Assembly (NCBI GenBank): GCA_002689465.1
Contig: NZGJ01000011.1
Location: forward strand, 59,414-95,965
Length of the DNA: 36,552 bases
Direction: 5' to 3'
Source: Rhodospirillaceae bacterium
Lineage (GTDB): Bacteria; Pseudomonadota; Alphaproteobacteria; MPNO01; UBA830
Positions 4,698-32,748 of the stretch are shown here, in pieces (the first letter of the stretch is position 1; every line of letters starts with the position of its first letter). Below the pieces are notes generated by a model. It did not search any database. It saw only the letters and a list, made by a program, of their open reading frames with translations, and had not been told where the DNA came from. The position numbers and the translations under genes are program-made.

Positions 4698-6326
4698 ATG
4701 ACAATCTTGTTACGCCAACCGTCGAATCTGCCGCCGTCAGACCGCTATGACCAGTGGCTAGCAATCGGGGGCATCGATCCGTCAGTACTGGACCTTCCGG
4801 CGACGCGAATGATGCCGAATGCTGCGGGCGCGCTTGAACACGCGTTCGAGGATTGCCGCGAACTTTGGTGGAGTATCGGCCGTGTTTTGGCAGGCCAGCC
4901 AACGGCTGAAATCTCGCATGCAGCTGCATGTGCGTCTTTCGGGTCCGATTTCGGGCTGATGCTTGCATGGGATCACCTGGTGCGATCGGCATCTGCCGAC
5001 AGGACTGTGACACTTGCGGTCTGTGATGACCCGCATCTCTTTCGGCATCTGTCGGAAATCCCGGGAGTAGACGCCGGGCGAAGGCCCGGAGTCCGGGTTC
5101 GATGCCTGCTTTCCGGCGCCCGTGGGCTCGTTGCCCGCGTATCCGTCGGCCTGCGCGTCGCATGGGCCGCCCTGGCGTGCCGCAATGATCGTGCGGTTTG
5201 CACGCCCGGTGCGCCCGCACTGATCGTTTATGGCCACCCAGGCAGTAGGGCCGACGGATACGACATCTATTTTGGTGATCTTCTTGCCCGTTTTCCCGAT
5301 GTCTGGCGGGTGCTGCATACCGATTGCGGGCTGAAGAGCGCACGCGAACTTACCGGCGGCGAGCGAACGGTCAGCCTGCACGCCTGGGGCAATCCGCTTT
5401 ACGCGATTTTTGGCCTGCCGTGGATGCGTTGGCGACCGGTGCCCGGTGGCCCCCTGTGCCGGGAATATGCCTGGTTGATTCGCCGCTCTGCGGTCGTCGA
5501 GAATAGCGGCGGCGGGCCTGCGATCAACCGGTGGCAGCAGCACTGCCAGGCTAGGTGGCTGGATGCCGCACGGCCACGCGCCGTTGCCTGGCCGTGGGAG
5601 AATTTTTCATGGGAGCGCGCTCTGGTTAGGGCTGCTCGCGCCAAAGGCGTCGTCACCACGGGGTATCAACATACCGTGATCGGGCCGCATCAGTTTAACT
5701 ACTCCGTTAACTGTAATCCTGACGGGTCCGCCTCGGTACCCGATAAGATCGCGGCCGATGGGCCCGCCTACCGTCAGGAGATGATCGACTGGGGTCTTGC
5801 CGAGGAGCGTGTCGTAGACGGTGGGTCGTTCCGTATTACCGAGCCTACCCGCCACATGTCACCTGCCGCCGATGCGCCGGTTTATATGGCGCTTTCCGCC
5901 AATCTTAAAATTGCCAACCGCCAGATGGATATCGCGCGGCGGATCGCGGGCGGTGGAATGAAGGTAGTCATTAAACAACACCCCATGTATCCGGTATCGT
6001 TCGCCGAAACCGAAAATCTGTCGCGGACCGAAACATCTATGGCTGAATTTCGGAAGCTGTCCTGCGTGATCTATTGCACCGGTGCTAGCGCATTAGACGC
6101 GCTGCTTGCCGGTTTACCCAGCGTTCGGCTCAGATTCGCCGATCAGGTGTCGATTGACGTATTGCCGAAAAACATCGGCGGGGCTGTGGCGGATACCGAC
6201 GGGATATTCGATTTTGTGAACAATCCGGCTAAACCGCCGGAAATTGTCTGGCGAGATATGTTTTCGCCTGTCGATTACGGCATATGGGCCAGTCTTCTGA
6301 AGACGACGGTCGATCTACGCCCATAG
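4698..6326 (+). CDS. Putative GT-B-fold surface-carbohydrate glycosyltransferase
   Basis: A 542-residue soluble protein. Three C-terminal clusters point to a GT-B-type transferase: WPWENFSWE at residues 298-306, GYQHTVIGPH at 322-331, and KQHP at 426-429, like the KxHP element of capsule KpsS/KpsC-like and sialyltransferase-like enzymes. CTGASALDALLAGLPSV then resembles a nucleotide-sugar-binding helix. The overall pattern recalls the leptospiral LIC13510-type surface carbohydrate biosynthesis family (TIGR04326); that match is from memory and not a search. The first 250 residues show no motif I recognise. It is divergent from the methyltransferase at 4614, with an 83-base gap. Donor and acceptor are unknown. 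Confidence 0.6.
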   Translation: MTILLRQPSNLPPSDRYDQWLAIGGIDPSVLDLPATRMMPNAAGALEHAFEDCRELWWSIGRVLAGQPTAEISHAAACASFGSDFGLMLAWDHLVRSASADRTVTLAVCDDPHLFRHLSEIPGVDAGRRPGVRVRCLLSGARGLVARVSVGLRVAWAALACRNDRAVCTPGAPALIVYGHPGSRADGYDIYFGDLLARFPDVWRVLHTDCGLKSARELTGGERTVSLHAWGNPLYAIFGLPWMRWRPVPGGPLCREYAWLIRRSAVVENSGGGPAINRWQQHCQARWLDAARPRAVAWPWENFSWERALVRAARAKGVVTTGYQHTVIGPHQFNYSVNCNPDGSASVPDKIAADGPAYRQEMIDWGLAEERVVDGGSFRITEPTRHMSPAADAPVYMALSANLKIANRQMDIARRIAGGGMKVVIKQHPMYPVSFAETENLSRTETSMAEFRKLSCVIYCTGASALDALLAGLPSVRLRFADQVSIDVLPKNIGGAVADTDGIFDFVNNPAKPPEIVWRDMFSPVDYGIWASLLKTTVDLRP

Positions 6327-17704: not shown

Positions 17705-19402
17705 ATGATAGATGCCGTGATCAGGAAGGCGCGTCAGGTGCTGGGGGACCCCGTGCTCCGGCGTTGGCTGTTGCGGCGGATTGCCGGCCTGGAGAAATTG
17801 CCCGCCGGGTTCGTTTTAGGACAGCCCCCCTATTTGAGCGATGAATTGGAACCGCATTCACCTGCCGCGACTGATTTCCCGGCTGGTAGTTTTGCAGCTC
17901 CTACAGAAAACATCCGGATTTCCCTGCCGGGGCAATCCGTTGATCTGTCGCCCGATGATCCATCGGCGCTGTTCACCGAGCCCTATGCGGATATCGAAAC
18001 GCTTCTTGGCGCTCACCGGTTTGCTTGGGTGCCCGTCGCAGGGGAAGAACTCGATCCCGATTGGGTTGCTTCCCTTTGGCAATGTTGGTCGGACGGATTT
18101 GGCGACGGCGATTCAGGTTGGCCGTGGCACGCCTACACGGCGGCGGAGCGGGCGATCAACATCATCGATTTTTCGCGCCGCTTCGGATTGCCCGGCCCGC
18201 GCGATACCACGTCGGCGTTGCTTGTGCGTCATGCCAGGATCATTCGTGGCGGGCTGGAATATTTCGGCGAGCATTATACATCCAATCATCTGTCCAATAA
18301 TGGGCGCGGGCTGTTGCGGATCGGCACGGCGCTGGATCTCAAAAATTACGCTGATACCGGTGCGAAGATCATGGTGGCGGAGGCCGGGCGGCTATTCGGC
18401 CGGTCGGGTGTGCTGCGCGAAGGGTCAACCCACTATCATTTGCTGATCACCCGAAACTACATCGATGCCTGGCTGGATGCCCGCGCCGCCGGCCTCGATC
18501 AGACGGATACACTGCGCGAAGTCGCCGCGCGGGCAATCGCGGCCATACCCGGACTGTGTCTGCCCGGAGGACTTCCGCTTATCGGCGATATCTCTCCCGA
18601 TGTGAAACCGGAATATCTCCGAAAATTGTATGATGCAGGCAATCCGAATGCCTGGCCGGCAAACCTGCCGGCGTCCCGTCAAAGCGATGCCCTGTCCCTG
18701 CTAAGCGAGATACCACCGGTCTCGCCGGATCGGCTTGCGGCAGATGGCTGGCACAGGTTCGGTGGCCATGACTGGCAGGCGCTTTCATTTGTGCCGCCCG
18801 ATGGATGGCCACCGATGCCAGGCCACGGACACCAGGATCTCGGCAGTTTTGAGCTCCATGACGGAGATCTCCCCATTATTATCGATCCCGGCAGAGGCAG
18901 TTATGCCGACCCGCAATACGAAATGCCGGCGGCACATAATGGCGTGACGATCGACGGCCGTTCGCCTACACCGGCGAATCGGCCTTACTACGCGGTCGCA
19001 TTCCGGAATCTTATCTTCGCCTCGCCACCGGAAATGCAGCGGACGCGTGATGGCCGGGTGCTGCGGAATGCAGGGTTCCGGTATCTGAAAGCCGTGACGT
19101 CGGCGGAGCGGGAATGGCGATTTTCGGAAGCCGGTGTCAAGATATCAGACCATATCGTCGGACGGGGGCGGCACGGCATTTGCCGGCGTTTCTGTACGCC
19201 CCTGACCGTTAGGCGTGAGGCAGATGCCGTTATCATGTCCGCCGGTTTGCGGTCGTACCGTCTTTTGCCGGGCGCGGATTTCAGGCTTGAGGATATTACC
19301 TGCTGGTCTGCCTATGGCGAAGGAAGGCCCGCGACGCAGATAATTTCAGAAAGGCATGAATCCCTGCCTTTTGAAGCTGTGGTAACAATAGAACGAATTT
19401 GA
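17705..19402 (+). CDS. Heparinase II/III family protein
   Basis: A 565-residue protein. The first 330 residues are helical and tryptophan-rich, like the alpha-toroid of heparinase II/III and alginate lyases, with SNHLSNNGRGLL and REGSTHYHLLITRNY in the expected catalytic-face helices. The second half is a beta-sandwich opening with GHGHQDLGSFELHDGDLP, the clearest family signature. These proteins cleave uronic-acid polysaccharides by beta-elimination, and members inside exopolysaccharide operons are thought to trim or release the polymer. No signal peptide is evident, so a cytoplasmic or non-classical location is possible. Its TGA overlaps the TTG start proposed for the GtrA gene. Confidence 0.85.
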   Translation: MIDAVIRKARQVLGDPVLRRWLLRRIAGLEKLPAGFVLGQPPYLSDELEPHSPAATDFPAGSFAAPTENIRISLPGQSVDLSPDDPSALFTEPYADIETLLGAHRFAWVPVAGEELDPDWVASLWQCWSDGFGDGDSGWPWHAYTAAERAINIIDFSRRFGLPGPRDTTSALLVRHARIIRGGLEYFGEHYTSNHLSNNGRGLLRIGTALDLKNYADTGAKIMVAEAGRLFGRSGVLREGSTHYHLLITRNYIDAWLDARAAGLDQTDTLREVAARAIAAIPGLCLPGGLPLIGDISPDVKPEYLRKLYDAGNPNAWPANLPASRQSDALSLLSEIPPVSPDRLAADGWHRFGGHDWQALSFVPPDGWPPMPGHGHQDLGSFELHDGDLPIIIDPGRGSYADPQYEMPAAHNGVTIDGRSPTPANRPYYAVAFRNLIFASPPEMQRTRDGRVLRNAGFRYLKAVTSAEREWRFSEAGVKISDHIVGRGRHGICRRFCTPLTVRREADAVIMSAGLRSYRLLPGADFRLEDITCWSAYGEGRPATQIISERHESLPFEAVVTIERI

Positions 19403-19854
19403 AAATTGCAGATCGCATGAGCCTGATTGGCGAAAAAAGAAATAGTACGAAGTTTAATCTCGGTGCTTTCCTGGTGAGTGATTTCGGTCGTGCGGCGAAA
19501 CGTTATCTGGTGGTTGGCGGTGTTTCCGCGCTTGCCGACTGGTCCGTTTTTGCCGTGATGCTTTATGGCCTCGAACTACATTACATCGCTGCTGGTACTA
19601 TCTCTTTCATCCTCGCCACGGGGTTGAATTACTACCTGTCCGTGCGTTTTGTGTTCGGTGCCGGCAGCCGCGGCCCACGGCAGGCGATGGTACTAGTATA
19701 TATGGTGAGCACCGTCGGCATCGCCATAAATCTTGGCATTCTGACCGTTGGCATAGATGTCCTGGAACTGCATCCGCTTGTTGCTAAGTTTTTTGCAACG
19801 GGGGTTGCTGTGTTCTGGAATTTTCTGGCCCGTTACTTTTATATCTTTAAATGA
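19399..19854 (+). CDS. GtrA-like polyprenyl-phosphate-sugar flippase
   Basis: A 151-residue protein with four hydrophobic helices after a 30-residue polar lead. RYLVVGGVSALADWSVF is the GtrA opening helix, ATGLNYYLSVRFVF the conserved middle, and FWNFLARYFYIF the usual end. GtrA proteins are thought to flip undecaprenyl-phosphate-linked glucose or similar sugars for addition in the periplasm. Either TTG 19399 (TTGA overlap with the heparinase stop) or ATG 19417 could be the start. I favour neither strongly, and the fold begins well after both. The GT-C gene downstream and the DPM-like GT2 at 22915 complete the usual three-part machinery. Confidence 0.85.
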   Translation: MKIADRMSLIGEKRNSTKFNLGAFLVSDFGRAAKRYLVVGGVSALADWSVFAVMLYGLELHYIAAGTISFILATGLNYYLSVRFVFGAGSRGPRQAMVLVYMVSTVGIAINLGILTVGIDVLELHPLVAKFFATGVAVFWNFLARYFYIFK

Positions 19855-19979
19855 CTCCCGCCCGTTGTCAGCAAATTTTTGTTCTTGCATTCTGGGCTTG
19901 GATTGCGGCGATGCTGGCCCTTTACATAGGCTCGTTTGGCCCGGTGATCCGCATTCTTATTTCCAGGTTGACGCCATGA
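19851..19979 (+). CDS. Small single-pass membrane protein (42 aa)
   Basis: ATG at 19851 overlaps the GtrA stop (ATGA), and the frame runs 42 codons to TGA 19977-19979. It fills the gap that otherwise separates GtrA from the GT-C gene. The peptide starts MTPARCQQ, followed by a run of about 20 hydrophobic residues (IFVLAFWAWIAAMLALYIGSF region) and a short tail with two arginines, so it is a single transmembrane helix. Its position between a flippase-like protein and a membrane glycosyltransferase suggests a small accessory subunit (inference). It belongs to no family I can name. Confidence 0.55.
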   Translation: MTPARCQQIFVLAFWAWIAAMLALYIGSFGPVIRILISRLTP

Positions 19980-20005
19980 AGCGCCGGGCACTGGCTTTCA
20001 AATGA
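19976..20005 (+). other. Nine-codon mini-ORF bridging the small membrane protein and the GT-C gene
   Basis: ATG 19976 overlaps the TGA of the 42-residue ORF, and its own TGA (20003-20005) overlaps the ATG of the GT-C gene at 20002. Encoding MKRRALAFK, it is probably too short to be functional as a protein. Its two ATGA junctions would let ribosomes terminate and restart across the otherwise untranslated gap. It may serve only to couple translation, or be chance. Confidence 0.3.
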
Positions 20006-21927
20006 CAACGATTTTAGCGCTTGCTGCGGTAGTTATGCTCACGCTTGGCTGCATAGGTTACGGCAGTCTCCTCAGCCGCCTCTGCGGTGCCGACGGCTAC
20101 TTCACGAGCCCGCTTGAAAGGGCCGCCGTCACGTTCGCTGTTGGTCTGGGTACTTTGGGATGGATACTCTTCTTTCCGGGCGTGTGGGGCTATTTCATAC
20201 CGTTGGTGTTTTGGATTGTCTGCTTGCCTGGCGCCGGATATGCGGCTGTCTTGTGGGTTCGCTCCGGCATTTCGTTCCAGCGGATTGATTTCTCAAAGCT
20301 GGATATTCTGCTCGTGGCACTTATCGCGCTTGTTGCTGCAATCGATGTTCTTGAGGGGGTTTCGCCGCCCGCAGACGCTGACACGCTCGCCTATCATTTT
20401 GCTCATCCGAAGGATTTTATTGCGGCAGGGCAGGTATCGTTCGTGCCACGTGCAGTGAGCGGTGCTATTCCCTTGCTTATACATATGACCTACGCCGCCG
20501 CCCTCGGAACTGGCGGCGAACTGGCACTCACACTCTGGGTGATGGTGACCGGTTGGGTGGCTTCGTTACTTGTCTATGTGCTGGTGCGGAAGCATGTCGA
20601 TCGTAGCTGGGCTTTGGCGGTTGGGTTGATTTTTATGACCACGCCCGCGGTTCTGTATGGTAGCGGCAACGGCCAGGTGGAAATGCGGGGCGCCCTGTTC
20701 GCCCTCTCCGTTGTTTCTCTAATAATTTCAGGTCGAAGGAATACAGCGGTTGGGTTGTTTGTGCTTGGCGGACTCTGTGCCGGGTTTTTCCTTGGCGCCA
20801 AATTTTACGGCCTAATTTTTGTAGGGGCAGCTGGTCTCGTAATTTTGTTTCAGCGCGGTGGTGTGCGAAACGGGTTGATTTTTGGTGTTGCGGCTTTGGC
20901 AGCTGGGTTTCAATGGTATCTCTGGAACTGGATGAACACGGGTGATCCGATATTCCCGATTCTGACAAATTTCCTGCAATATCCTGACAGTCCAATCTGG
21001 ACACGGGAATTTGGTCAATATTTTGCCGTAATGCTCGCCGCCAGTGAACTCCCGCTTGATCGGACGGTTTTCAACTGGTTGAGCTATCCGGTGTTGTCGA
21101 TTTTTAATCTTGTTGAACCGTTGGAGGGTGGGCGAACCGGGTTTGGCATTTTCGCCATTTTGATTTTTCCGTTGGCGATCTATGGATTGAGCCGTCGCGA
21201 TCTCCGCAGCCACGAATTTGTCGTCCCACTAACGGTTGCGTTCATTTTTTTCACTGTCTGGTTCTTCAGCGGCACTGCACAACGCACTCGACACCTTTTG
21301 CCGATATACCCGCTGGTCCTGATCGGCTTTTTTCCGCTTGCCGTTTTCGTTGCCCGGCGTGCGTTGTTGCTGTTTCCCCTGGCAGCGGGCATTGCTGCTG
21401 TTTTGGCCATACAGATCGCCGGTCAGTTGGTATTCGGCGTGAACTACGCCACCCATGTTTTCAGCGGTGAGATGCGGACCGAGTTCCATCAGCGGAATGT
21501 GCCCGGTGCGAATTCTGCAGATTGGATTAATCGTGAGATGCCTGGAAACGGCAAGGTTGGGTTTATGAACCGGCAGCTCGCGTATTTGTTACCTTCTTCG
21601 CGCTTCATGATGCATCCGCACCTTCAGGTCCTCGTCGATAGTCGCGCCACCGCGACGGATGGACGCGTGTTCGTGGCACAAATTAGGCAGCAGGAGCTTA
21701 CGCATCTCCTGCTGTCGGGAGACTGGCAAAAACCTGACCTCGATCAAAGCGATCACACACCGTTCTTTGGGATGATAAATCATCTCATTCAAGAGCACTG
21801 TTTGAAACCGATTCGCAATTTCGATACCTTAGCGATTTCGTCGCGAACGCTCCAGCGTTTCGGGAGCAAGGACATCAAAAACAAAGATACATTCTTTGAA
21901 CTCGTGCCTGATCGTTGTCCGCAATGA
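20002..21927 (+). CDS. GT-C-fold polytopic glycosyltransferase (ArnT/PMT-like)
   Basis: A 641-residue membrane protein with about 12-13 hydrophobic helices, then a soluble tail of about 150 residues. The first long periplasmic loop holds PPADADTLAYHFAHP, with acidic residues where GT-C enzymes keep their catalytic Asp/Glu, followed by a helix-rich core and an RTRHLLPIYP segment typical of GT39/GT83-like proteins. It would transfer a sugar from a polyprenyl-phosphate donor onto a glycan or lipid in the periplasm. The GtrA and DPM-like GT2 genes near it would make and flip that donor. The family assignment is by architecture, so the exact CAZy family is uncertain. Confidence 0.72.
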   Translation: MTTILALAAVVMLTLGCIGYGSLLSRLCGADGYFTSPLERAAVTFAVGLGTLGWILFFPGVWGYFIPLVFWIVCLPGAGYAAVLWVRSGISFQRIDFSKLDILLVALIALVAAIDVLEGVSPPADADTLAYHFAHPKDFIAAGQVSFVPRAVSGAIPLLIHMTYAAALGTGGELALTLWVMVTGWVASLLVYVLVRKHVDRSWALAVGLIFMTTPAVLYGSGNGQVEMRGALFALSVVSLIISGRRNTAVGLFVLGGLCAGFFLGAKFYGLIFVGAAGLVILFQRGGVRNGLIFGVAALAAGFQWYLWNWMNTGDPIFPILTNFLQYPDSPIWTREFGQYFAVMLAASELPLDRTVFNWLSYPVLSIFNLVEPLEGGRTGFGIFAILIFPLAIYGLSRRDLRSHEFVVPLTVAFIFFTVWFFSGTAQRTRHLLPIYPLVLIGFFPLAVFVARRALLLFPLAAGIAAVLAIQIAGQLVFGVNYATHVFSGEMRTEFHQRNVPGANSADWINREMPGNGKVGFMNRQLAYLLPSSRFMMHPHLQVLVDSRATATDGRVFVAQIRQQELTHLLLSGDWQKPDLDQSDHTPFFGMINHLIQEHCLKPIRNFDTLAISSRTLQRFGSKDIKNKDTFFELVPDRCPQ

Positions 21928-21992
21928 TCGCTGCTATGCTTGTCGTGAACGGTATTGATGGATAAGAGTGCGGTCATGAATTGTACTGTCCA

Positions 21993-22736
21993 ATGAAACC
22001 TCCTGCACCGAATGCCGAAAATCCTTTCAGGGACCACTTTCCCGAGGAGGTTCTAGAAGACCTAGAGGATTTGCCGAATTACAATGACTGGATTGTGTCT
22101 CAGTTCGCACCGTTCCTGAACGGCAGCACCGCAGAGATCGGCGCCGGTCTGGGAACGATATCGGGGCGGCTGCTGTCTCAGGTGCAGTCTCTGGATCTGA
22201 TAGAGCCGGCACCGGTCATGGCCCGCCAGTTACAGAAAAAATTTATTGGTGAAGATCATGTTCGCATCTTCGACCGCTCTCTGGAAGATTGGCAACAGGC
22301 GGTTGGTCGCGATGAATACGATGGAGTCGTCCTCGTCAATGTCCTCGAGCATATAAAAGACGATCATGCTGCCGCCCAAGGTTTTTTTCGGAGCCTGAAA
22401 CCGGGTGGCTATCTGATGATTTTCGTTCCTGCGCTACCGTTCCTCTATAGCAAGATGGATTACGCCTACGGCCACTATCGGCGGTATACCCGCAATTCTC
22501 TGAAAGACTGTATTGCCGCCACCGGATTTGAGATCGAAAAGCTGCACTTTGTGGACCTCGCCGGGGTAATCCCCTGGTGGCTGTTGAACACGGTCCTCGG
22601 GAAAACGTCATTTCACGCGCCGTCGCTGCGATTCTATGACAGATGCGTCGTCCCGGTATCGCGCGCCTGCGAATCCCTTTTGCGGCCCCCTTTGGGAAAA
22701 AATCTGATATTGATTGCACGTAAAGAGGCAGGTTGA
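21993..22736 (+). CDS. Class I SAM-dependent methyltransferase
   Basis: About 247 residues. Motif I is AEIGAGLGTISGRLL, an acidic residue ends LDLIEP, DGVVLVNVLEHIKDD is the motif II/post-motif region with the LEHI typical of ubiG/Methyltransf_11/23-like enzymes, and LKPGGYLMIFVPAL follows. A tyrosine-rich stretch (KMDYAYGHYRRYT) after the last core strand is common in methyltransferases found beside DPM-like GT2 genes. ATG 21993 is preferred; an in-frame TTG at 21981 would add four residues, and neither has a strong ribosome site. Placed between the GT-C and GT2 genes, it may methylate the sugar they handle (inference). Confidence 0.82.
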   Translation: MKPPAPNAENPFRDHFPEEVLEDLEDLPNYNDWIVSQFAPFLNGSTAEIGAGLGTISGRLLSQVQSLDLIEPAPVMARQLQKKFIGEDHVRIFDRSLEDWQQAVGRDEYDGVVLVNVLEHIKDDHAAAQGFFRSLKPGGYLMIFVPALPFLYSKMDYAYGHYRRYTRNSLKDCIAATGFEIEKLHFVDLAGVIPWWLLNTVLGKTSFHAPSLRFYDRCVVPVSRACESLLRPPLGKNLILIARKEAG

Positions 22737-22799
22737 TCTGAGACTGATCCCAAACCAGCCTGTCCCCCAACACAATCGAGACCGGAAGCCTGCCGAGCA

Positions 22800-22898
22800 A
22801 TGCCGAATGTGACCATCCTGAACCCCGCGTATCACGCAAGCGCGACGATCATTCGGCTGCTGGAAAGCGCTAGCTTGCTAAGCCTCAGATCTGAATAA
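22800..22898 (+). pseudogene. Remnant of a family 2 glycosyltransferase N-terminus
   Basis: The gap between the methyltransferase and the intact GT2 gene contains a 32-codon frame from ATG 22800 to TAA 22896-22898. Its peptide, MPNVTILNPAYHASATIIRL followed by LESASLL, reads like the first strand and helix of a GT2 enzyme (V-[ST]-I-x-x-P-[AV]-Y-N-x-x-x-TI-x-x-x-LES), with the usual YN changed to YH. The frame then closes and no GT2 core follows. I read it as the stub of a deleted glycosyltransferase gene, although the similarity spans only about 25 residues. Confidence 0.4.
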
Positions 22899-22914
22899 TT
22901 AAATCAGTTTGGTC

Positions 22915-23625
22915 ATGAAATCTCTTACCGTCGTAATGCCATGTTACAATGAACAGGATACCATCCGCGATATTGTAGACAGTGTTTTGTCCGCCCCAAG
23001 GTTGGATTTGGACATTGAATTAATTATTGTTGATGACGGCTCCAAAGACCGTTCGCGTGAGATTATTGCTGAACTTGCAGATCTCAATCCGGCCATCAAA
23101 TCGGTTTTGCAGGATCAGAATCGTGGCAAGGGTGCTGCTGTCCGCACAGGCATCGGATTGGCGACCGGTGATATTGTTCTGATTCAGGATGCGGATCTTG
23201 AGTATGATCCCAACGAATACCCGAGCTTGCTTGCGCCAATTGTGGATGGCCATGCTGACGTCGTCTATGGATCTCGCTTCGCCGGGGGAAATGTGCATCG
23301 CGTGCTGTATTTTTGGCACAGCATAGCGAACCGGATGCTAACCCTGCTGTCGAATATGTTTACGAATCTCAACCTCAGCGACATGGAATGCTGTTTCAAG
23401 ATCTTCAGGAGAGAGATTGTTCAATCAATCGACCTCAAAGAGGACAGGTTTGGAATAGAACCTGAGATAACCGCTAAAATTGCCCGAATGAAGCCGGTGA
23501 TTAGAATCTATGAAGTCGGTATTTCCTATCAGGGGAGAACGTATTCGGAAGGTAAAAAAATCGGCTTGTCCGATGCATTCAGAGCACTCTATTGTATTGT
23601 TCGATATGGCCTGGGACGCTCTTGA
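22915..23625 (+). CDS. Family 2 glycosyltransferase, dolichyl/polyprenyl-phosphate mannose synthase-like
   Basis: About 236 residues with the GT2/DPM1 pattern: LTVVMPCYNEQDTI, LIIVDDGSKDRS, NRGKGAAVRTGI, QDADLEYDP (the DxD-type metal site), VYGSRFAGGN, DMECCFKIFRREI, and EVGISYQGRTYSEGKKIG, which is very typical of bacterial polyprenyl-phosphate glycosyltransferases. It has no C-terminal membrane helices, so it is a soluble or peripheral enzyme making a polyprenyl-phosphate sugar on the cytoplasmic side. GtrA could flip that donor for the GT-C enzyme. ATG 22915 gives the usual start; an in-frame TTG at 22909 adds two residues. Codons are AT-richer than in the neighbours. Confidence 0.88.
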   Translation: MKSLTVVMPCYNEQDTIRDIVDSVLSAPRLDLDIELIIVDDGSKDRSREIIAELADLNPAIKSVLQDQNRGKGAAVRTGIGLATGDIVLIQDADLEYDPNEYPSLLAPIVDGHADVVYGSRFAGGNVHRVLYFWHSIANRMLTLLSNMFTNLNLSDMECCFKIFRREIVQSIDLKEDRFGIEPEITAKIARMKPVIRIYEVGISYQGRTYSEGKKIGLSDAFRALYCIVRYGLGRS

Positions 23626-23738: not shown

Positions 23739-24938
23739 ATGGCGCGGATAACAGGTGCGGTGCGAGTATTAGATCCCGTGAAGGCCATTGGCTCCGTTGC
23801 TTTTCTGGCACCGCTGCTCACTGTGTATATTCCACTTTCGATGGCCATCGTGCTTCCTGTCGGGGCCGTTCTATTGCTGACCTGCCGGCGTATCAATGGT
23901 TTATCTCCGTTCCGGTTCGATTGGCCTGTCGTTGTCGTCCTTACCGGATTTTTGATTGTAGCGGCGCTTAGCGTCCTCTGGTCCCATTCGCCGGCATTGT
24001 CGCTCGATAAATTGTCACGAACCACAATGGCAATGATCGCCGGGCTGGTATTTATCACCGCTCTCAAGGGGCTGGACGGCGAGGTAGCGAACAGGGTGTC
24101 ATCCTGCTTCTTGGCGGGAATGGGTATCGCCCTGGTCCTGATCATAGCTGAGCGCCTTGCCGGGGGGCTTATGCTTCGTATTGAAGCCGACAAAACTCAG
24201 AACATGTTCATCAATCAGTTCAACCGGCCACTCGCAATTCTGTCGATCTTGATTTGGCCTGCCGTTGTCATTCTTGCGCAGCAGCGCAGAGTTTGGGGAA
24301 TCGGTGCCATAGCTTTGTTCGTCTGTATCCTGCTGGCTTTTTCAAGCGGCGCTGCAGCCGCAGCGATTGGCGCGGGCGCGGTGGTTTTTACGGCCGTTTA
24401 CATCTTTCCCAGAATGGGGGCGATTGTTGTTGGTATCGGCCTCGCCGCGGGTATTTTGCTTGCGCCCGCAATCGACAGTCAAATGCCGGCTCCGAAGCAG
24501 ATATTTGAATCGATTGACCTGCCCAGATCGGCCTACCATCGGCTCTTGATATGGGAGTTCGCGACGGCGCGTATCGACGAACGACCAATTCTTGGTTGGG
24601 GCTTGAATACATCCCGGGCCATACCAGGCGGCCAGAAAAATCTCGATGTCAGCGAGAAAGCCTTGCCATTGCATCCGCATAATGCGGCCCTTCAATGGCG
24701 GCTGGAACTCGGCATTCTCGGCTCTCTGTTCGGAGCGGCGCTATTCCTCGTTTCTACCGAAATGGCGCGGAGATACGCGGCTGGAAGGGTCGCCCGTGCC
24801 GGTGCCGTCGCCGCGATTGTGTCGACATCCGCTATCGCAATGCTCAGTTTCGGTGCGTGGCAGACGTGGTGGGTATCCTCGATTTTTTTGATTGCGGGTT
24901 TCACCATTCTGGTGTGTCGCCGCCGATCGCCCGGATGA
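23739..24938 (+). CDS. O-antigen ligase-like membrane protein (WaaL/Wzy family), copy 1
   Basis: A 399-residue protein with about 10-11 transmembrane segments and a large periplasmic loop in the second half. LGWGLNTSRAIPGG and LPLHPHNAALQWRLELGILG form the WaaL/O-antigen-ligase signature (conserved H..n..l....E.G..G), with arginines and histidines in the loop as expected for binding the undecaprenyl diphosphate-linked donor. It would join a lipid-linked glycan to lipid A-core or another acceptor, or polymerise it; sequence alone does not separate the two. A clear paralogue lies at 26889. By eye the second halves of the two proteins are much more alike than the first halves. Confidence 0.83.
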   Translation: MARITGAVRVLDPVKAIGSVAFLAPLLTVYIPLSMAIVLPVGAVLLLTCRRINGLSPFRFDWPVVVVLTGFLIVAALSVLWSHSPALSLDKLSRTTMAMIAGLVFITALKGLDGEVANRVSSCFLAGMGIALVLIIAERLAGGLMLRIEADKTQNMFINQFNRPLAILSILIWPAVVILAQQRRVWGIGAIALFVCILLAFSSGAAAAAIGAGAVVFTAVYIFPRMGAIVVGIGLAAGILLAPAIDSQMPAPKQIFESIDLPRSAYHRLLIWEFATARIDERPILGWGLNTSRAIPGGQKNLDVSEKALPLHPHNAALQWRLELGILGSLFGAALFLVSTEMARRYAAGRVARAGAVAAIVSTSAIAMLSFGAWQTWWVSSIFLIAGFTILVCRRRSPG

Positions 24939-24969
24939 CGCCAACCAAGTCCGGCGGCGCGGGGTGCCA

Positions 24970-25912
24970 ATGAAGGTTCTGGTCACCGGGGCCGGCGGGT
25001 TTGTTGGCGATTCACTCTGCCGTCGCCTGTTCGCGTCGGGTCACAGGCATATTGCGCGATCAGCCGTCACCCCGGGACTGGATGGAGACCCGGATTACGG
25101 GAGACCTGACACGGCTCTCCAATTTCAAAGACGTTGTTCAAAGCGCAGACGCGGTGATTCACCTCGCAGCACGCGTGCATATGATGCGCGATACCGCCAC
25201 TGATCCGGAGTTAGCTTTTCGGCAGGCTAATGCGGATGTCACGAAGCGTCTGGCACAGGCGGCGGCGGATGCCGGCGCTGGGCGGTTCGTTTTCCTGAGC
25301 TCCGTAAAGGTAAACGGTGAGGAAACCACCACCGCCCCGTTTTCCGAGCATGATATGCCGGCGCCCGGTGACGCCTATGGGCGGTCCAAGCAGGATGCTG
25401 AAGACGCGTTGCAGAAGATTGCGGCGACTACGAAGATGGCGGTGACGACATTGCGGGTGCCGCTGGTGTATGGCCCGACCGTCCGCGCGAATTTTGCTGC
25501 CATTATGCGGCTTTGCGATACCGCTCTGCCGTTGCCGCTGGATGGCGTAACGCGGAACCGACGCAGCCTTCTCTATCTTGGTAATCTTACTCACGCGCTC
25601 GAGACCATTGTCATGTCTGATAACGACATTTCCGGCACCTATCTGCTGAGCGATGGCGAAGATCTGTCGACGGCTCAACTTGTCAGCCATTTGCGATATG
25701 CCCTGAACCGGCACCCCCGGCGCCTGCCGGTTCCCGCGTCGGTAATAAAAATGATCGCGTCGCTTGCCGGTAAACAGGAAGCGGCCCGGCGGCTTTGCGG
25801 CAACCTCCAGGTCGATTCGACTGAATTCCAACAAGCCTTCGGCTGGGTGCCCCCGTTCTCTGCCGCTCAGGGAATTGCGGCAACCACCGCCGCGCATCGC
25901 GCTACCCGCTAG
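24970..25912 (+). pseudogene. NAD-dependent epimerase/dehydratase (WbpV/WreQ-like), copy 1, frameshifted
   Basis: The frame from ATG 24970 reads MKVLVTGAGGFVGDSLCRRL, the NAD-binding start of an extended SDR, and then loses homology at about 25048 and stops at 25203. The rest of the protein continues from ILRDQPSPRDWMET in another frame to the stop at 25912, keeping VIHLAARVHMM, FLSSVKVNGEE and the catalytic YGRSK. Against the intact paralogue at 28138 this copy is 8 bases shorter between the cag/agg and the ata codon (about 25045-25049), so the frame is broken. The downstream frame's own start codon (TTG 25001) would lack the nucleotide-binding glycines. A true mutation, a sequencing error and programmed frameshifting cannot be told apart here, but the multi-base length difference favours a real lesion. 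Confidence 0.75.
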
Positions 25913-25984
25913 CGCACCGTCGCTCCCCCCCTATTTCCCAATCTCTTCCAGACTCGGCCGCCGCTTGCGCAGGTGCGCGTGTCG

Positions 25985-26008
25985 GCCGCGCTGTATCTGC
26001 GCGTCGGA
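25985..26008 (+). other. Short stretch resembling the N-terminal membrane helix of the WbpM-like gene
   Basis: In one frame these 24 bases encode AALYLRVG, identical to eight residues in the first membrane helix of the dehydratase gene at 29188 (coding positions about 29290-29313). In copy 2 that gene follows the epimerase, so a remnant at the same place after the copy 1 epimerase would mean the duplication reached into it. The match is short and the two DNA segments differ at several third positions, so chance is not excluded. Confidence 0.3.
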
Positions 26009-26810
26009 CGATTGGCGAACTGCGGCGTCCCAAATCGACCTTGACGGTATATTGCTGGCTCTCAAGCCGGATCATCAGCCGAAAATTGCGGAACAGGTGA
26101 TGAAAGGCGGACTACCGCTGTTTCTTGAAAAACCGCTCGCACTGGATAATGAAAGTGCTAATCGGCTTATGCAGGTGGCTCGCATGCAGGGCTTTGTCGG
26201 GGTTGTTGACCATCTCCATTTGTTTGCGCCGGAATTTCAGGAAATTGTTCGACAGGGGCGGACCCGTGGTGCAGTTCGTGCAATTACATCCGTGTCTGGA
26301 AATTGTGGACCTTACCGCGGTTCTTGGTCGGCATGCTGGGATTGGGCGCCACACGACGTTGCCATGGCGTTGGCGGTCATGGATTCGTTCCCAGTCTCAG
26401 TCCTGGCTCGAGTTGTCGCGCGACGAAGGGATGAAGGGCAGATATTCGAGAACATTGGTCTAACTCTGACCTTTTCAGGCGGGACCACGGCTAATATTGT
26501 CACGGGTAACGCGTTTGATGGACGGCGGCGGGAATTTTCTGTTGTCATCGACGATCTCACCCTTTCCTACTTTGATGACCCCGATAACAAACGATCAGTT
26601 GTAATCGGACGGGGCGACGGTGCACAGCTAGTGCCTGTCGAGACATTCCCACCGTTAAAGGCAGCGCTCAACGAATTCGTTGCGAGGATTCGTCAGGGGA
26701 CGGGAGGCGAAACCGACCTTGCACTTGGTGTTAATGTCGTGTGGATAATCAGTGCCGCGGAGCGTTCTATGCATAGTGGAGTTGCAGTGCCTATTGAACC
26801 TCCTGTTTAA
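26007..26810 (+). pseudogene. Gfo/Idh/MocA-family oxidoreductase lacking its NAD-binding start
   Basis: From about DDWRTAASQIDLDGILLALK the frame reads as a Gfo/Idh dehydrogenase: PLFLEKPLALDN carries the EKP, GFVGVVDHLHLFAPEFQE follows, and WDWAPHDVAMAL is the catalytic-region segment. The remaining substrate domain runs to the TAA/TGA-bounded end at 26810. Roughly the first 60-65 residues, including the GxGxxG, are absent; upstream in this frame the codons are shadows of the epimerase tail and its trailer, with no start at the right place. It looks like a 5'-truncated gene whose break point lies near 26000. A 'full-length' ORF from 25764 is an artefact of open frame through the epimerase. 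Confidence 0.65.
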
Positions 26811-26888
26811 ACGGGACGGGTGCTGTCGCCGGGTGCTAGAATACCGTCTCTCTTCCAGTTTGCATCTAGATACATTTAAGCCGAGACA

Positions 26889-28106
26889 ATGAAAATCGTC
26901 TGTGTTTCAGGAAAAACCGGTCTATCGAGGTTGGCCACTCCCACGACCTTCATGGGCCTTATTGCGTTTTTGACGCCCCCATTTACTCTTTATCTCCCTC
27001 TGTCTTTAGCCATTATCCTTGCGGCAGGCGCAGTTATAATGATGATTTTTAGGATTTTGGGTTGGCTTCCAAGGCCCAATCTCGATCTGTTGCCTTTGTT
27101 AGCCATCGGGGGTTTGATGTTCATCGTCGCACTAAGCACGCTCTGGTCATATGCTCCGGAACATTCACTCGATAGATTGCCGCGCACATTGCTGGCGGTT
27201 CTTGCGGGTGTGATATTCATTAGCGCTGTCAAAGCGCTAGATGGTCATGTAACGAGAACTACCTCCCGATGTTTTCTGTCTGGAATGGCGATGACCCTTT
27301 TTCTGATCGGGGTCGAGACGCAGACGGGTGGGATGTTGCTGCGCAATTCCATTGACGAAGATACGTTGTCCTCCTCTCTCAATCAGCTCAACAGACCACT
27401 TTCCATTCTGTCAGTCCTCATTTGGCCCGCGGCAGTTATGCTGGCAGCGCGTCATTGGGCGCTGGCGTTTTCTGCGGTTGGGATCTTCGCTGCTTTTTTG
27501 CCGTTTTTTATTACTTCCGCTGCAATTGCCGCCGTCGTGGTCGGTGCCGTTATCTTCTCCATTGTGTATATTTTGCCCAAAACGGGCGCTGCCATCGTAG
27601 GATTTGTACTTGCGACGGGGGTGCTTGCAGCACCTACGATCGATCATTATCTCCCTCCGCCCGAAATTTTATTCGATTCTCTAAACCTGCCGCGATCGAC
27701 ATATCATCGATTGTTAGTATGGGAATTCACGACTCAGCGGGTTGATGAGCGCCCAATTCTGGGCTGGGGCTTCAATACGTCGCGTGTGATACCCGGCGGC
27801 GATGAAAATTTGGACGTTAGCGAAAAAGCCCTACCACTGCATCCACATAATGCCGCGCTTCAATGGCGATTGGAGCTCGGTGTCTTAGGTGTATTATTTG
27901 GAGCAGGCATAATTCTCATCGTGACCGAAATGGCCCGCAAACACTCGGCGGGGCGGGTCGCTCGCGCGGGCGCTGTCGCCACGATTGGCGCCACATTCGT
28001 CATTGCAATGATCAGTTTCGGTGCATGGCAGACATGGTGGATATCCGCCATTTTCCTTATTGCGGGATTCACCATTTTAGCGTGCCGGCGCTCCGTGCCC
28101 GGATGA
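26889..28106 (+). CDS. O-antigen ligase-like membrane protein (WaaL/Wzy family), copy 2
   Basis: A 405-residue paralogue of the protein at 23739, with the same topology of about 10-11 helices and large second-half loop. LGWGFNTSRVIPGG, LPLHPHNAALQWRLELGVLG and the C-terminus FGAWQTWW...IFLIAGFTILACRR are nearly unchanged between copies, whereas the first 200 residues differ a good deal. Conservation is concentrated in the catalytic loop and last helices, which suggests either shared acceptor chemistry with different donors, or recent gene conversion of the 3' half (inference). It starts 78 bases after the truncated Gfo/Idh gene and its codons are AT-richer than in copy 1. Confidence 0.83.
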   Translation: MKIVCVSGKTGLSRLATPTTFMGLIAFLTPPFTLYLPLSLAIILAAGAVIMMIFRILGWLPRPNLDLLPLLAIGGLMFIVALSTLWSYAPEHSLDRLPRTLLAVLAGVIFISAVKALDGHVTRTTSRCFLSGMAMTLFLIGVETQTGGMLLRNSIDEDTLSSSLNQLNRPLSILSVLIWPAAVMLAARHWALAFSAVGIFAAFLPFFITSAAIAAVVVGAVIFSIVYILPKTGAAIVGFVLATGVLAAPTIDHYLPPPEILFDSLNLPRSTYHRLLVWEFTTQRVDERPILGWGFNTSRVIPGGDENLDVSEKALPLHPHNAALQWRLELGVLGVLFGAGIILIVTEMARKHSAGRVARAGAVATIGATFVIAMISFGAWQTWWISAIFLIAGFTILACRRSVPG

Positions 28107-28137
28107 ATCGGTTCCCATGTCGCCGGTGGTCGGGCCG

Positions 28138-29088
28138 ATGAAAATATTAGTCACTGGCGCTGGCGGATTTGTCGGTGATGCGCTTTGCCGCAGGCTTTCG
28201 GCGTCGGGCTGTGAGGTTATCGGCCTCTTCCGCGATACACCTGCCCCACGGGATTGGATGGAAACCCGGGCACTGGGTGATCTGACGCAGCTTGACGATT
28301 TTGCCGATGTTGTTGGAACAACTGACGCCGTAGTCCACCTTGCGGCGCGCGTCCATATGATGCGTGACAATGCCGCCGAACTCGATCCCGCCTATCGGCA
28401 GGCTAATGCGTGTGTTACCCGGCGTTTGGCGCGAGCGGCTGCGGCTTCTGGTGCCGAGCGCTTTGTCTTCCTAAGTTCGGTCAAGGTGAACGGCGAAGAG
28501 ACATATGGCACTCCTTTTAGGGAGCAGGATGCGCCGGCGCCTGAAGATGCCTATGGGCGATCCAAGCGGGATGCCGAAGACGCCCTCCGGGAGATCGCAG
28601 CGACGACGTCCATGGCCGTCACGACGTTGCGGGTCCCGCTGGTATACGGCGCGGGCGTCAGCGCGAACTTTGGCCGGTTGCTGCGTGTTTGCGATACTGT
28701 TCTGCCGTTGCCACTCGACGGGATAAGGGAAAATCGCCGCAGTCTGCTCTATCTCGGTAATCTTACTCACGCGCTTGAAACCATTTTGAAAGCTAACCCC
28801 AACCCGGCGGGTACCTATTTTTTAAGCGATGGCGAAGATTTGTCGACGGCGACACTTATCTGCCATCTGCGACATTCCCTAAACCGACGAGCTCCGCGTC
28901 TGCCGATTTCCCCCTCCATTGTACGTGCCGCTGCAGCTTTCGGCGGCGAACAAGGCGCGGTTCGGCGGCTTTGTGGTTCTTTGCAGGTCGATTCAACCCG
29001 ATTCCGCAAGGCGCTTGGCTGGACGCCCCCGTTTTCTCCGGCCCAGGGAATCGCGGCAACTGTAGCCGCTCATCGCGCCAAGCGCTGA
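28138..29088 (+). CDS. NAD-dependent epimerase/dehydratase (WbpV/WreQ-like UDP-sugar 4-reductase), copy 2
   Basis: About 316 residues of an extended SDR. KILVTGAGGFVGDALCRRL is the NAD site, VVHLAARVHMM and FLSSVKVNGEE are family strands, and AYGRSK holds the catalytic Tyr-x3-Lys. The ARVHMM and SVKVNGEE pattern, with a WbpM-like dehydratase immediately downstream, matches enzymes such as WbpV and rhizobial WreQ that reduce UDP-4-keto-6-deoxy-GlcNAc to UDP-QuiNAc. That role is inferred from family and context. I choose ATG 28138 because it aligns with the copy 1 start and keeps the 31-base spacing; an in-frame ATG at 28117 would add seven residues. Confidence 0.82.
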   Translation: MKILVTGAGGFVGDALCRRLSASGCEVIGLFRDTPAPRDWMETRALGDLTQLDDFADVVGTTDAVVHLAARVHMMRDNAAELDPAYRQANACVTRRLARAAAASGAERFVFLSSVKVNGEETYGTPFREQDAPAPEDAYGRSKRDAEDALREIAATTSMAVTTLRVPLVYGAGVSANFGRLLRVCDTVLPLPLDGIRENRRSLLYLGNLTHALETILKANPNPAGTYFLSDGEDLSTATLICHLRHSLNRRAPRLPISPSIVRAAAAFGGEQGAVRRLCGSLQVDSTRFRKALGWTPPFSPAQGIAATVAAHRAKR

Positions 29089-29187: not shown

Positions 29188-31110
29188 ATGCGTCGATTGC
29201 CCGATTTAGAGACCTTCATCCTGCGCGGTAGACGAGCGCGCATAGCGTTCGCCCATGATATCATCGTGGCGGCGATTTCGTTCGTGGCAGCGCTGTACTT
29301 ACGTGTCGGCAGTGATCTTGACTACTTCCCCGCTGATTTTGTCGTCTTGGCGACAGCGGTTTACGCGTTCATTGCGGCGGCGGTTTTCTGGGGCATGCGG
29401 CTCTACGCGGGTGTCTGGCGTTATGCGTCGGTCGAAGATCTTGTAGCGATTATCCGCGCTGGCACCATCGTGGTGCTGGTTTTCCTCGCGACAATGTTTC
29501 TAGTCTCTCGATTAGAGTTCATTCCACGCTCGACTCTTCTGATAAACTGGCTCGTCCTCCTCGCCCTGCTCGGTGGCCCACGGTTTCTGTATCGCTTGTT
29601 TAAGGACCGCCGCGCAAACGCCTCCGCCGAGCGTGATGGCGAACGGCGTATCCCCGTACTGCTGATCGGGGCCGGCGATTCGGCGGAGCTGTTTATCCGG
29701 GCGATCAACCGGGCACGTCAATCCGCTTGGCATGCGGTTGGTCTGATAGATGAAAAAGGCCGCCGCGTTGGCCATAAGATTCACGGTGTCCAGATACTCG
29801 GAGATATCGGTGATATCCCGTCGATCGTGTCGCAGATGGACCACGAGGGCCGTCGCCCGCAGCGCCTAATTGTGACAAAGGCACGGATTGAAGGTGATGA
29901 AATCCAGCGATTATTATCTATCTCCGAAGAGCTGAAAATCGGGCTGGCCCGTATGCCGCAGCTGGACGATTTTCGTGAAGATATTGACGCTACGCCCGAG
30001 ATAAGGCCGATTAATATCGAGGACCTGCTTGGCCGCCCGCAGGCATCTCTCGACCGCGCCAGCATGGCGACGTTGATCGGTGGGCGTCGGATTCTTGTCA
30101 CCGGTGCGGGCGGTACGATCGGCTCCGAGCTCTGTCGCCAGATCGCGGCCTGCAAGCCTGCGACGATCGTTCTGCTGGACAATTCGGAATACCAGCTCTA
30201 TTCCGTCGACATGGAGATCGGTGAGACAGCTTCAGATCTCCCACGTCGTCCAATACTGGCGGATGTTCGCGATAAGGAGCGGATAAGCCGGATATTTTCT
30301 GTTGAACGGCCCGAGCTGGTTTTTCATGCCGCCGCACTAAAGCATGTGCCGATGGTCGAACTGCATCCAGACGAAGGCGCCTTGACCAATGTTGCCGGCA
30401 CCCGGGTCGTCGCGGATGCCTGCCGTGAACATGGCGTGCGTGCGATGGTATTGATCTCCACTGATAAGGCTGTGAACCCATCCAGCATGATGGGTGCGAC
30501 AAAGCGGCTGGCGGAGAGTTACTGCCAGGCACTGGACCTCGCAGAAGCGGGGAGCGAAGCGATACGAACGCGTTTCGTTACGGTCCGATTTGGAAATGTC
30601 CTAGGGTCCACAGGGTCGGTTGTACCGCTTTTTCAGCGCCAACTGGCAGCAGGTGGGCCGTTGACCGTAACACATCCTGATATGGCCCGCTATTTCATGA
30701 CGGTCCGCGAAGCCGTAGAACTGGTGCTGCAGGCCTCCGTGCAGGGGGCCGCCGATAGCGCAGACGAGGGTAAGATTTTCGTTCTAGATATGGGCGAGCC
30801 GGTCAAGATTATCGACCTCGCCCGCCAGATTATTTTGCTCGCAGGTCTGCAGCCTGACATCGATGTTGCGATCGAAATAACGAGTCCGCGGCCGGGCGAA
30901 AAATTGTTCGAGCAAGTTCTGCATGCATCGGAAGAACTTATCCCGACGCCGCATCCAGGCATCCTGCTTGCTGCCCCTCGTGCCAATAATATTACTCTGC
31001 TTGATCGCGCGATCGAAGAACTAACGGTTGCTGCCCGGCAGGGTCACATCGACGAGACTCGCACGATTATCCGGCGATTAGTGCCAGAATTTCAATCACT
31101 TAATGACTAA
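29188..31110 (+). CDS. WbpM/CapD/FlaA1-type UDP-sugar 4,6-dehydratase, membrane anchored
   Basis: A 640-residue protein, the length of the large WbpM-type dehydratases. Four N-terminal membrane helices (about residues 20-130) are followed by a first Rossmann-like domain (LLIGAGDSAELF, glycines 161 and 163) and the catalytic SDR domain with LVTGAGGTIGSELC (G306-x2-G309-x2-G312), FHAAALKHVPMVE, STDKAVNPSSMMGATK (424-439) and RFGNVLGSTGSV. Methionine 435 with lysine 439 replaces the usual Tyr-x3-Lys, as is typical of WbpM. It converts UDP-GlcNAc (or UDP-GalNAc) to the 4-keto-6-deoxy sugar. The adjacent epimerase/reductase would finish UDP-QuiNAc or an isomer (inference). Confidence 0.92.
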   Translation: MRRLPDLETFILRGRRARIAFAHDIIVAAISFVAALYLRVGSDLDYFPADFVVLATAVYAFIAAAVFWGMRLYAGVWRYASVEDLVAIIRAGTIVVLVFLATMFLVSRLEFIPRSTLLINWLVLLALLGGPRFLYRLFKDRRANASAERDGERRIPVLLIGAGDSAELFIRAINRARQSAWHAVGLIDEKGRRVGHKIHGVQILGDIGDIPSIVSQMDHEGRRPQRLIVTKARIEGDEIQRLLSISEELKIGLARMPQLDDFREDIDATPEIRPINIEDLLGRPQASLDRASMATLIGGRRILVTGAGGTIGSELCRQIAACKPATIVLLDNSEYQLYSVDMEIGETASDLPRRPILADVRDKERISRIFSVERPELVFHAAALKHVPMVELHPDEGALTNVAGTRVVADACREHGVRAMVLISTDKAVNPSSMMGATKRLAESYCQALDLAEAGSEAIRTRFVTVRFGNVLGSTGSVVPLFQRQLAAGGPLTVTHPDMARYFMTVREAVELVLQASVQGAADSADEGKIFVLDMGEPVKIIDLARQIILLAGLQPDIDVAIEITSPRPGEKLFEQVLHASEELIPTPHPGILLAAPRANNITLLDRAIEELTVAARQGHIDETRTIIRRLVPEFQSLND

Positions 31111-31157: not shown

Positions 31158-31164
31158 CTATTTG

Positions 31165-32748
31165 ATGACCGAAAGTTCTCCCGCCATACAGCGGGCTTTG
31201 ATCTCCGTGTCCGATAAAGCGGGCCTTGTGGAATTTGCTATGTTCCTTGCCGAGCATGGTGTTGCACTTCTTTCGACAGGCGGAACCGCAAAGGCGATGC
31301 GTGACTCTGGACTCGACGTGATAGACGTTGCCGATCACACCGGGTTTCCGGAAATGATGGATGGCCGCGTGAAAACTTTACACCCAACTGTGCATGGTGG
31401 AATCCTGGCCCGGCGAAGCGACGTTGGCCACCTTGCGGCCATGGAAGAGCACGGTATCGCACCGATCGACCTGATCGTGGTCAATCTGTATCCTTTCGAA
31501 GCGAAGGTGGCGGCGGGTGCCGACTATGACACCTGCGTCGAGAACATCGATATTGGCGGCCCGGCGATGATCCGATCTGCTGCTAAGAACCATGAAACCG
31601 TGACTATCGTTACCGATGTGGAAGATTACACAACTGTTATTGATGACATGGAACGTAATAACGGTGCGACAACGGCCGATCTGCGCCGCCACCTGGCTGG
31701 GATGGCATATGCCCGCACGGCGGCTTACGACTCCGCGATTGGCCGGTGGTTCGCCGAACAGAACGGAGAGTTGCTCCCGCGCCGGTTCTCGCTGTCGGGC
31801 GCGCGAGTGAAAAGCTTGCGTTACGGAGAAAACCCGCATCAGAATGCGGCATTTTATGCTACTGGCGATAACCGCCCTGGAGTCGCCACGGCCACGCAGA
31901 TACAGGGCAAGGAGCTCAGCTACAATAATCTAAACGATACCGATGCGGCGTTCGAACTCGCTGCCGAATTGGCGGCGCCCGCAATAGCGATCATTAAGCA
32001 CGCGAATCCTTGCGGTGTAGCGCTGGGCGATAAACTGGCCGATGCTTACGCCAAGGCGCTTAAATGCGATCCGGTCAGTGCATTTGGTGGGATCATCGCG
32101 GCTAATCGTGGGCTCGATGCCGATACCGCCGCGGCCATGCAGAATATCTTTCTTGAGGTGGTTATTGCGCCGGAAATTACGGCCGAGGCTAGAGAGATAT
32201 TTGCCGCGAAGAAAAACCTGCGCGTTTTGGAAACCGGCGGAATGCCTGACCCGGCTGCGCCTCGGCTGATGACCAAACTGTTATCTGGCGGTTTTCTGCT
32301 TCAGGACTGCGATTCCGGGCGGATCGGGGTGGATAATCTGAAGATCGTAACCAAGCGCGAACCTACGGACCAGGAAATCAGCGACCTGTTGTTCGCCTTC
32401 GCCGTCTGCAAGCATGTGAAGTCGAACGCGATTGTTTACGCCAAAGACGGCGCTACCGTCGGCATTGGCGCGGGCCAGATGAGCCGCATTGACTCATCGC
32501 GTATCGCGGCGCGAAAATCTGAAGACGCGGCTCAAGTTGCGGGTGCGCCGGAGGCGCTGGTTAAAGGCTCCGTCGTTGCATCGGATGCGTTCTTCCCTTT
32601 CGCCGACGGGCTGCTAGCGGCGGCGGATGCAGGCGCGACCGCCGTGATCCAGCCTGGCGGCTCCATCCGCGACGGAGATGTGATCGCGGCAGCCGACGAT
32701 GCAGGTCTCGCGATGGTGTTTACCGGGATGCGGCATTTCCGGCACTGA
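31165..32748 (+). CDS. purH: Bifunctional AICAR formyltransferase/IMP cyclohydrolase PurH
   Basis: About 527 residues, the normal bacterial length. The N-terminal cyclohydrolase (MGS-like) domain shows [49 protein letters not shown] and NLYPFEAKV. The transformylase domain shows [39 protein letters not shown] (catalytic Lys-His), [11 protein letters not shown] and GIGAGQMSR, ending [11 protein letters not shown]. It carries out the last two steps of de novo IMP synthesis in the cytoplasm. This is a housekeeping gene and marks the edge of the glycan island. It lies 54 bases after the dehydratase gene and probably has its own expression signals, though I see no clear promoter. Confidence 0.98.

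Follow-up and report, generated by a model that had tools for sequence, protein, structure and literature searches.

A segment of a polysaccharide gene cluster holding two pairs of ligase-like and epimerase-like genes is probably a scar left when two alleles of a cluster for O-antigen (or a related surface polysaccharide), located beside purH, underwent exchange. The most economical account is that the tails of two clusters were joined by recombination and that the left tail later decayed, and the segment is most likely a clear instance of a process already known, not a new system. It gives a legible picture of the way in which a surface-polysaccharide cluster may be exchanged in an uncultured alphaproteobacterial lineage that has been little studied. 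The segment lies within a 36,552-nucleotide stretch of DNA (the window; positions 59414-95965 of a 124-kb contig) from a metagenome-assembled genome (MAG) that is 67% complete, with 1.34 Mb in 55 contigs.

Anatomy of the segment

Profile searches identify the window as a polysaccharide cluster with its end at purH. The anatomy of the segment, its junction, its broken frames and its synteny with relatives are direct observations. All of the features from gt2 to purH lie on the + strand. As a preliminary description of this DNA had stated, there are two ligase-epimerase pairs: two Wzy_C (PF04932) genes, each followed by an SDR gene of the WbpV/GalE type. To their left is gt2 (22909..23625; PF00535), a polyprenyl-phosphate type family 2 glycosyltransferase (GT) that, within the family, is the left neighbour of a variable slot; in G004 and G005, genes that are 74% and 70% identical to it stand ahead of a GT-epimerase slot. 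The first ligase gene, lig1 (23739..24938), encodes an intact 399-aa Wzy_C (O-antigen ligase-like) protein with about 9 membrane segments and an HPHN motif. It is followed by epi1 (24970..25912), an SDR epimerase/4-ketoreductase-like pseudogene. The second ligase gene, lig2 (26889..28106), encodes an intact Wzy_C protein of 405 aa, and epi2 (28138..29088; PF01370, 114 bits) is an intact SDR epimerase/4-ketoreductase-like gene for which an alternative ATG at 28117 is likewise open. The locus closes with an intact gene for a wbpM/capD-like membrane nucleotide-sugar 4,6-dehydratase (29188..31110; PF02719, 355 bits), which is 84% identical to the G002 gene at the same position, and with purH (31162..32748; NF002049, 759 bits), a conserved core gene that bounds the locus.

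The similarity between the two copies is far beyond chance (blastn E ~0; 71% identity over 1,409 columns). The earlier view that a ligase-epimerase pair occurs twice nevertheless holds in full only for the ligases, both of which are intact; with epi1 a pseudogene, there is only one intact epimerase, together with one wbpM. Similarly, the pairs share the same order, but they are not side by side: 976 bp, comprising a wbpM spacer, a scrap of coding sequence and a truncated Gfo/Idh gene, lie between epi1 and lig2.

The junction between the pairs

In alignment with copy 2, epi1 is missing 8 bp after 25040, which shifts its frame. The frame beginning MKVLVTGAGGFVGD stops at 25203; the rest of the gene stays open as far as 25912 in a different frame, and the ORF at 25001-25912 is without the NAD-binding (Rossmann) motif. 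A loss of 8 bp would not be typical of a base-call error. The spacer that follows (25913..25994) resembles, by alignment and blastn, the epimerase-wbpM spacer of G002, a different species of the same genus, with a score of 88 against a shuffle maximum of 57. It has no clear match to the window's own epi2-wbpM spacer (score 49, shuffle maximum 54). It runs into a scrap of wbpM coding sequence (25988..26007; about codons 35-41, ALYLRVG), which is a 20-base exact match to the wbpM coding sequence of G005 and matches the G002 wbpM at 21/24 positions. Homology to a Gfo/Idh/MocA oxidoreductase gene (gfo, 26010..26810) is seen from 26010 on; this gene is without about its first 52 codons, its PF01408 match starting at profile position 33 and its homology beginning at residue 53 of the 314-aa protein of G006. 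Truncated genes of two alleles therefore meet at the junction, with the wbpM scrap ending at 26007 and gfo starting at 26010. Since epi1 is followed by an epimerase-wbpM spacer and then by a wbpM scrap, copy 1 must formerly have included a wbpM start of its own, which places the join at about 26008. Given these contents and the single tail order of relatives described below, the window reads as gt2-lig1-epi1-wbpM' joined to 'gfo-lig2-epi2-wbpM-purH.

In mechanistic terms, a crossover linking codon ~41 of one wbpM with codon ~52 of a Gfo/Idh gene would have joined the tail gt2-lig1-epi1-wbpM' to 'gfo-lig2-epi2-wbpM-purH, the tail of another allele. In relatives the site takes differing contents, each normally closing in a single epimerase-wbpM-purH. 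The left tail, redundant once the join had formed, would then have decayed, wbpM' having lost its start and epi1 having acquired the 8-bp frameshift; the frame of lig1 is still intact, and lig2-epi2-wbpM is the complete set. It is plausible that the conserved tail (the ligase C-terminal part, the epimerase, wbpM and purH) serves as a recombination anchor while the variable part changes, an incomplete swap leaving a doubled ligase and a decaying epimerase.

A tandem duplication in this genome, as had been proposed, is not supported, in view of the copy-1 spacer and wbpM scrap, the foreign gene fragment between the copies, and the match of both copy-1 spacers to G002. The segment is not made of adjacent repeat units with homologous spacers, and the sequences upstream of lig1 and of lig2 are unrelated. 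The identical intergenic length that had been pointed to is real, 31 nt from each ligase stop to the epimerase ATG (24970 and 28138). However, the two spacers are unrelated in sequence (11/31 identical when ungapped; a gapped score that 117 of 1,000 shuffles reach), so their equal length is weak evidence for a common duplication. The score of the copy-1 spacer against the 32-nt spacer of G002 was reached by 0 of 1,000 shuffles. Equal spacer length and a conserved half-gene should, as a warning, not be taken as evidence of duplication or gene conversion.

Content of the locus in relatives

In relatives the order gt2-[GT or ligase]-epimerase-wbpM-purH is present once, and every relative in which the locus was read carries a single epimerase, located upstream of wbpM. 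A single epimerase sits beside wbpM-purH in G002, G005 and G007; in G004 the epimerase is at a contig end, with wbpM-purH on a separate contig. The wbpM-purH adjacency is found in the same genus, family and order. Within the family, the order had-hacid-hepar-gtrA-u641-mt23-gt2-[slot]-epi is common to the window and G004, and u641-gt2-[slot]-epi-wbpM-purH to the window and G005, the slot being filled by a GT in both relatives; in G002 it is filled by a ligase, inside which the contig ends. Variable gene content at one site with shared flanks is thus found across G002, G004, G005, G006 and G007, with contig breaks in G002, G004 and G006. In a comparison of 27 genomes from the order, the window's genome alone gave two matches to this ligase.

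In relatives the gfo gene closes a sugar module within this locus. In G006, of the same family, a cupin-C-methyltransferase-SDR-gfo-GT4 module comes straight after a gt2-like gene, and in G079 a gfo module lies upstream of wbpM-purH. This placement indicates that gfo belongs to the alternative contents of the locus. In both genomes gfo is located with a C-methyltransferase, an arrangement that would fit a branched deoxysugar pathway. Homologues are rare: at E <= 1e-25 they occur in 6 of 385 genomes sampled from the class, a count that includes the window's genome.

The genus sample consists of three genomes, and the other two break at this locus. A scan of named genomes gave G002 (contig CAJQLI010000118.1) as the only close relative. 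Contigs C161 of G001, C118 of G002, C27 of G004 and C77 of G006 break off within one of the wbpM, ligase and epimerase genes or shortly past the epimerase; such contig ends fit strong strain variation at the site. A 45-aa epimerase scrap in G006 was considered as a second case of decay and rejected, being a contig end. G171 was likewise rejected as a further close full-length ligase, its 52,558-bp contig being equal in length to the L058 contig already in the profile.

Relationships among the two copies and the G002 allele

Over the 210 codons that are shared, lig1 and lig2 are 66% and 70% identical in amino acid sequence to the G002 ligase, and the three ligases are nearly equally diverged in this region (66-70%). 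For the epimerase body, identities are 69% (epi1/epi2), 72% (epi1/G002) and 70% (epi2/G002). In nucleotide resampling, a measure of unrooted similarity, the epi1 body is nearest G002 (0.987), as is the C-terminal part of lig1 (0.863), and the stretch 188-259 of the G002 ligase is nearest lig2 (0.9985). A maximum chi-square scan of the G002 ligase placed a single switch close to residue 266 (permutation p = 0.0005, or p = 0.016 with third positions alone), and this allele therefore looks mosaic, lig2-like in 188-259 and lig1-like after ~266. The pattern suggests that the start of the conserved ligase C-terminal part may be a recombination breakpoint.

On these comparisons copy 1 appears to be at least as like the G002 allele as like copy 2, and this closeness may partly stem from slow evolution of both. 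Similarity is not phylogeny, however, so that epi1 and epi2, and lig1 and lig2, stay compatible with the data as sisters. A rooted protein tree of the epimerases places epi1 and epi2 together (94/80), and the rooted ligase tree places lig2 with G002 (94/84). With rooted DNA trees, AU p values lie between 0.06 and 0.45; sister status of epi1 and epi2 is compatible (AU p 0.447), as are the alternatives. The preliminary description had tied its reading to the pairs being each other's closest relatives. That they are not is suggested by the similarities, but the rooted trees leave the two copies and G002 as a three-way split.

The conserved half of the ligases

The two ligases are indeed, as first noticed, much more alike in their second halves: overall identity is 56%, rising from 44% in the part before residue 260 to 78% in the remainder. 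Of the two causes that had been offered, domain-wise divergence agrees with the data, by way of constraint. The C-terminal part is as well conserved between species (lig1/G002 81%, lig2/G002 77%), and the same trend from N- to C-terminal part is seen in other ligase pairs (40% and 62% for G004/G005, 27% and 49% for G017/lig2, 24% and 43% for G007/lig2). From these alignments, the half-and-half pattern is best read as constraint on the C-terminal part, not conversion. Gene conversion would have homogenised the second half of both genes, for which the 78% against 44% identity might speak, but it is extremely improbable and was rejected on third-position identity, on the cross-species comparison and on the distribution of shared sites. 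Divergence at third positions is strong in the two halves alike (lig1/lig2 pS of 0.74 in the N-terminal and 0.66 in the C-terminal part), the putative converted tract had no raised synonymous identity relative to other alleles, and sites shared by lig1 and lig2 only are not enriched in the C-terminal part.

Alternative explanations

The main rival to an exchange is an old duplication within the lineage, in which lig-epi (with a wbpM start) was doubled in tandem in an ancestor; gfo would then have been inserted between the two copies, which diverged, and epi1 would have decayed. It would account for the shared order of the copies and for the epimerase protein tree, and the AU tests do not reject sister copies. 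Yet it needs a separate gfo insertion, truncated exactly at the wbpM scrap; the match of both copy-1 spacers is to G002 instead of copy 2; the ligase tree joins G002 to lig2; and the divergence of the copies is about as old as the genus. We consider it unlikely. The choice of exchange over old duplication, like any direction of transfer, is something we infer, and points against the exchange include the compatible sister grouping of epi1 and epi2, a wbpM scrap of only ~20 bp, and a source genome that is a 67%-complete MAG. An assembly artefact, in which the alleles of two strains were fused in one metagenome contig, might likewise be suspected in a MAG whose relatives' contigs break at this locus. 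However, the longest exact word common to the copies is 20 nt and lies inside the epimerase gene, away from the join, which makes a chimera very unlikely; in addition, the junction does not lie in a repeat, and the contig runs to 124 kb.

Compatible with an exchange scar, but rather unlikely, is that both ligases have been kept for different jobs, either as two acceptor or donor specificities, which had been suggested earlier and are possible because both ORFs are intact, or as a ligase and a Wzy-type polymerase. Each protein has a Wzy_C domain, the membrane-rich N-terminal part diverges most, and adjoining Wzy_C genes also occur in G300. Against this, the epimerase paired with lig1 is already defunct, and dN/dS values of 0.08-0.15 are long-term averages that cannot reveal constraint in recent times. 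A more specific version, which seems quite improbable, is that the doubled tail persists as a system of two ligases whose divergent membrane halves accept different undecaprenyl-linked chains, or of which one polymerises and the other ligates, both drawing on the single epi2-wbpM precursor pathway. If this were true, the cluster exchange would have made the cell able to display two surface glycans.

Putative functions of the ligases and sugar enzymes

A Wzy_C protein would ligate a chain to lipid A-core or polymerise the chain. Both proteins pass the curated PF04932 cutoff of 31.7 bits (lig1 at 50.7, lig2 at 33.6). A sequence search of both against solved structures gave zero matches. In a fold search with a lig2 model (pLDDT 70), the sole PDB match with E < 0.001 was the O-antigen ligase WaaL (7TPG; E 5.9e-4, TM 0.59). 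WaaL shares with these proteins the Wzy_C domain and many membrane helices, but it is only 16% identical to lig2. PF04932 also takes in Wzy polymerases and PglL enzymes, and because of the polymerases the role of lig1 and lig2, ligase or polymerase, stays putative.

The functions of the sugar enzymes we likewise infer from family and context. A WbpM-type dehydratase with an SDR would make UDP-6-deoxy-HexNAc (QuiNAc/FucNAc type). The window resembles WbpM/WbpV-type (WreQ-type) systems in having a wbpM-like dehydratase gene directly after an SDR gene, which suggests that epi2 and the WbpM-like dehydratase may carry out this synthesis. Among plasmid relatives of epi2 are a hybrid epimerase/sugar transferase and an SDR from P. 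aeruginosa. In contrast to the WbpM/WbpV-type assignment, the SDR reached no cutoff among NCBIfam equivalog models.

Relation to known cluster exchanges

O-chain clusters are replacement flexible genomic islands of aquatic prokaryotes, exchanged as blocks between lineages (PMC4033161). As in those islands, polysaccharide clusters of the same function but with different genes occupy one genomic site here, and a UDP-sugar epimerase gene lies at one boundary in Alteromonas. The islands differ in being clean swaps between close strains (typically >96% ANI) with SNP peaks at the borders, whereas in the window both tails and pseudogenes stand side by side. A hybrid O-antigen cluster is also known in Salmonella group D2, with wzy remnants in groups B1 and D1 (PMC3715488). 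There too, parts of two alleles are joined, gene remnants lie at the junction and a redundant polymerase gene is inactivated. The genes are different, however, and the D2 junction has an H-repeat remnant, none being identified in the window; the redundant gene is wzy in Salmonella and, in the window, a ligase-like gene of which there are two copies, still intact. No direct precedent for remnant pairs of ligase or epimerase genes emerged from searches of the literature.

Further observations

Adjoining ligase-like genes are not unique to the window: in G300, an unrelated alphaproteobacterial genome, contig C157 (L160:660-3154) carries two adjoining Wzy_C-type genes on the same strand that are 41% identical. 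Elsewhere in the window's cluster, a 542-aa ORF at 4698-6326 has zero Pfam matches. A protein with a heparinase II/III-like C-terminal domain is encoded at 17705-19402 and is kept in G004 (54%). At 19399-23625, gtrA, the gene for a Pfam-less multi-membrane protein of 641 aa (~11 segments), a methyltransferase gene and gt2 form a block that is conserved in the family and resembles a Gtr-like glycan decoration module.
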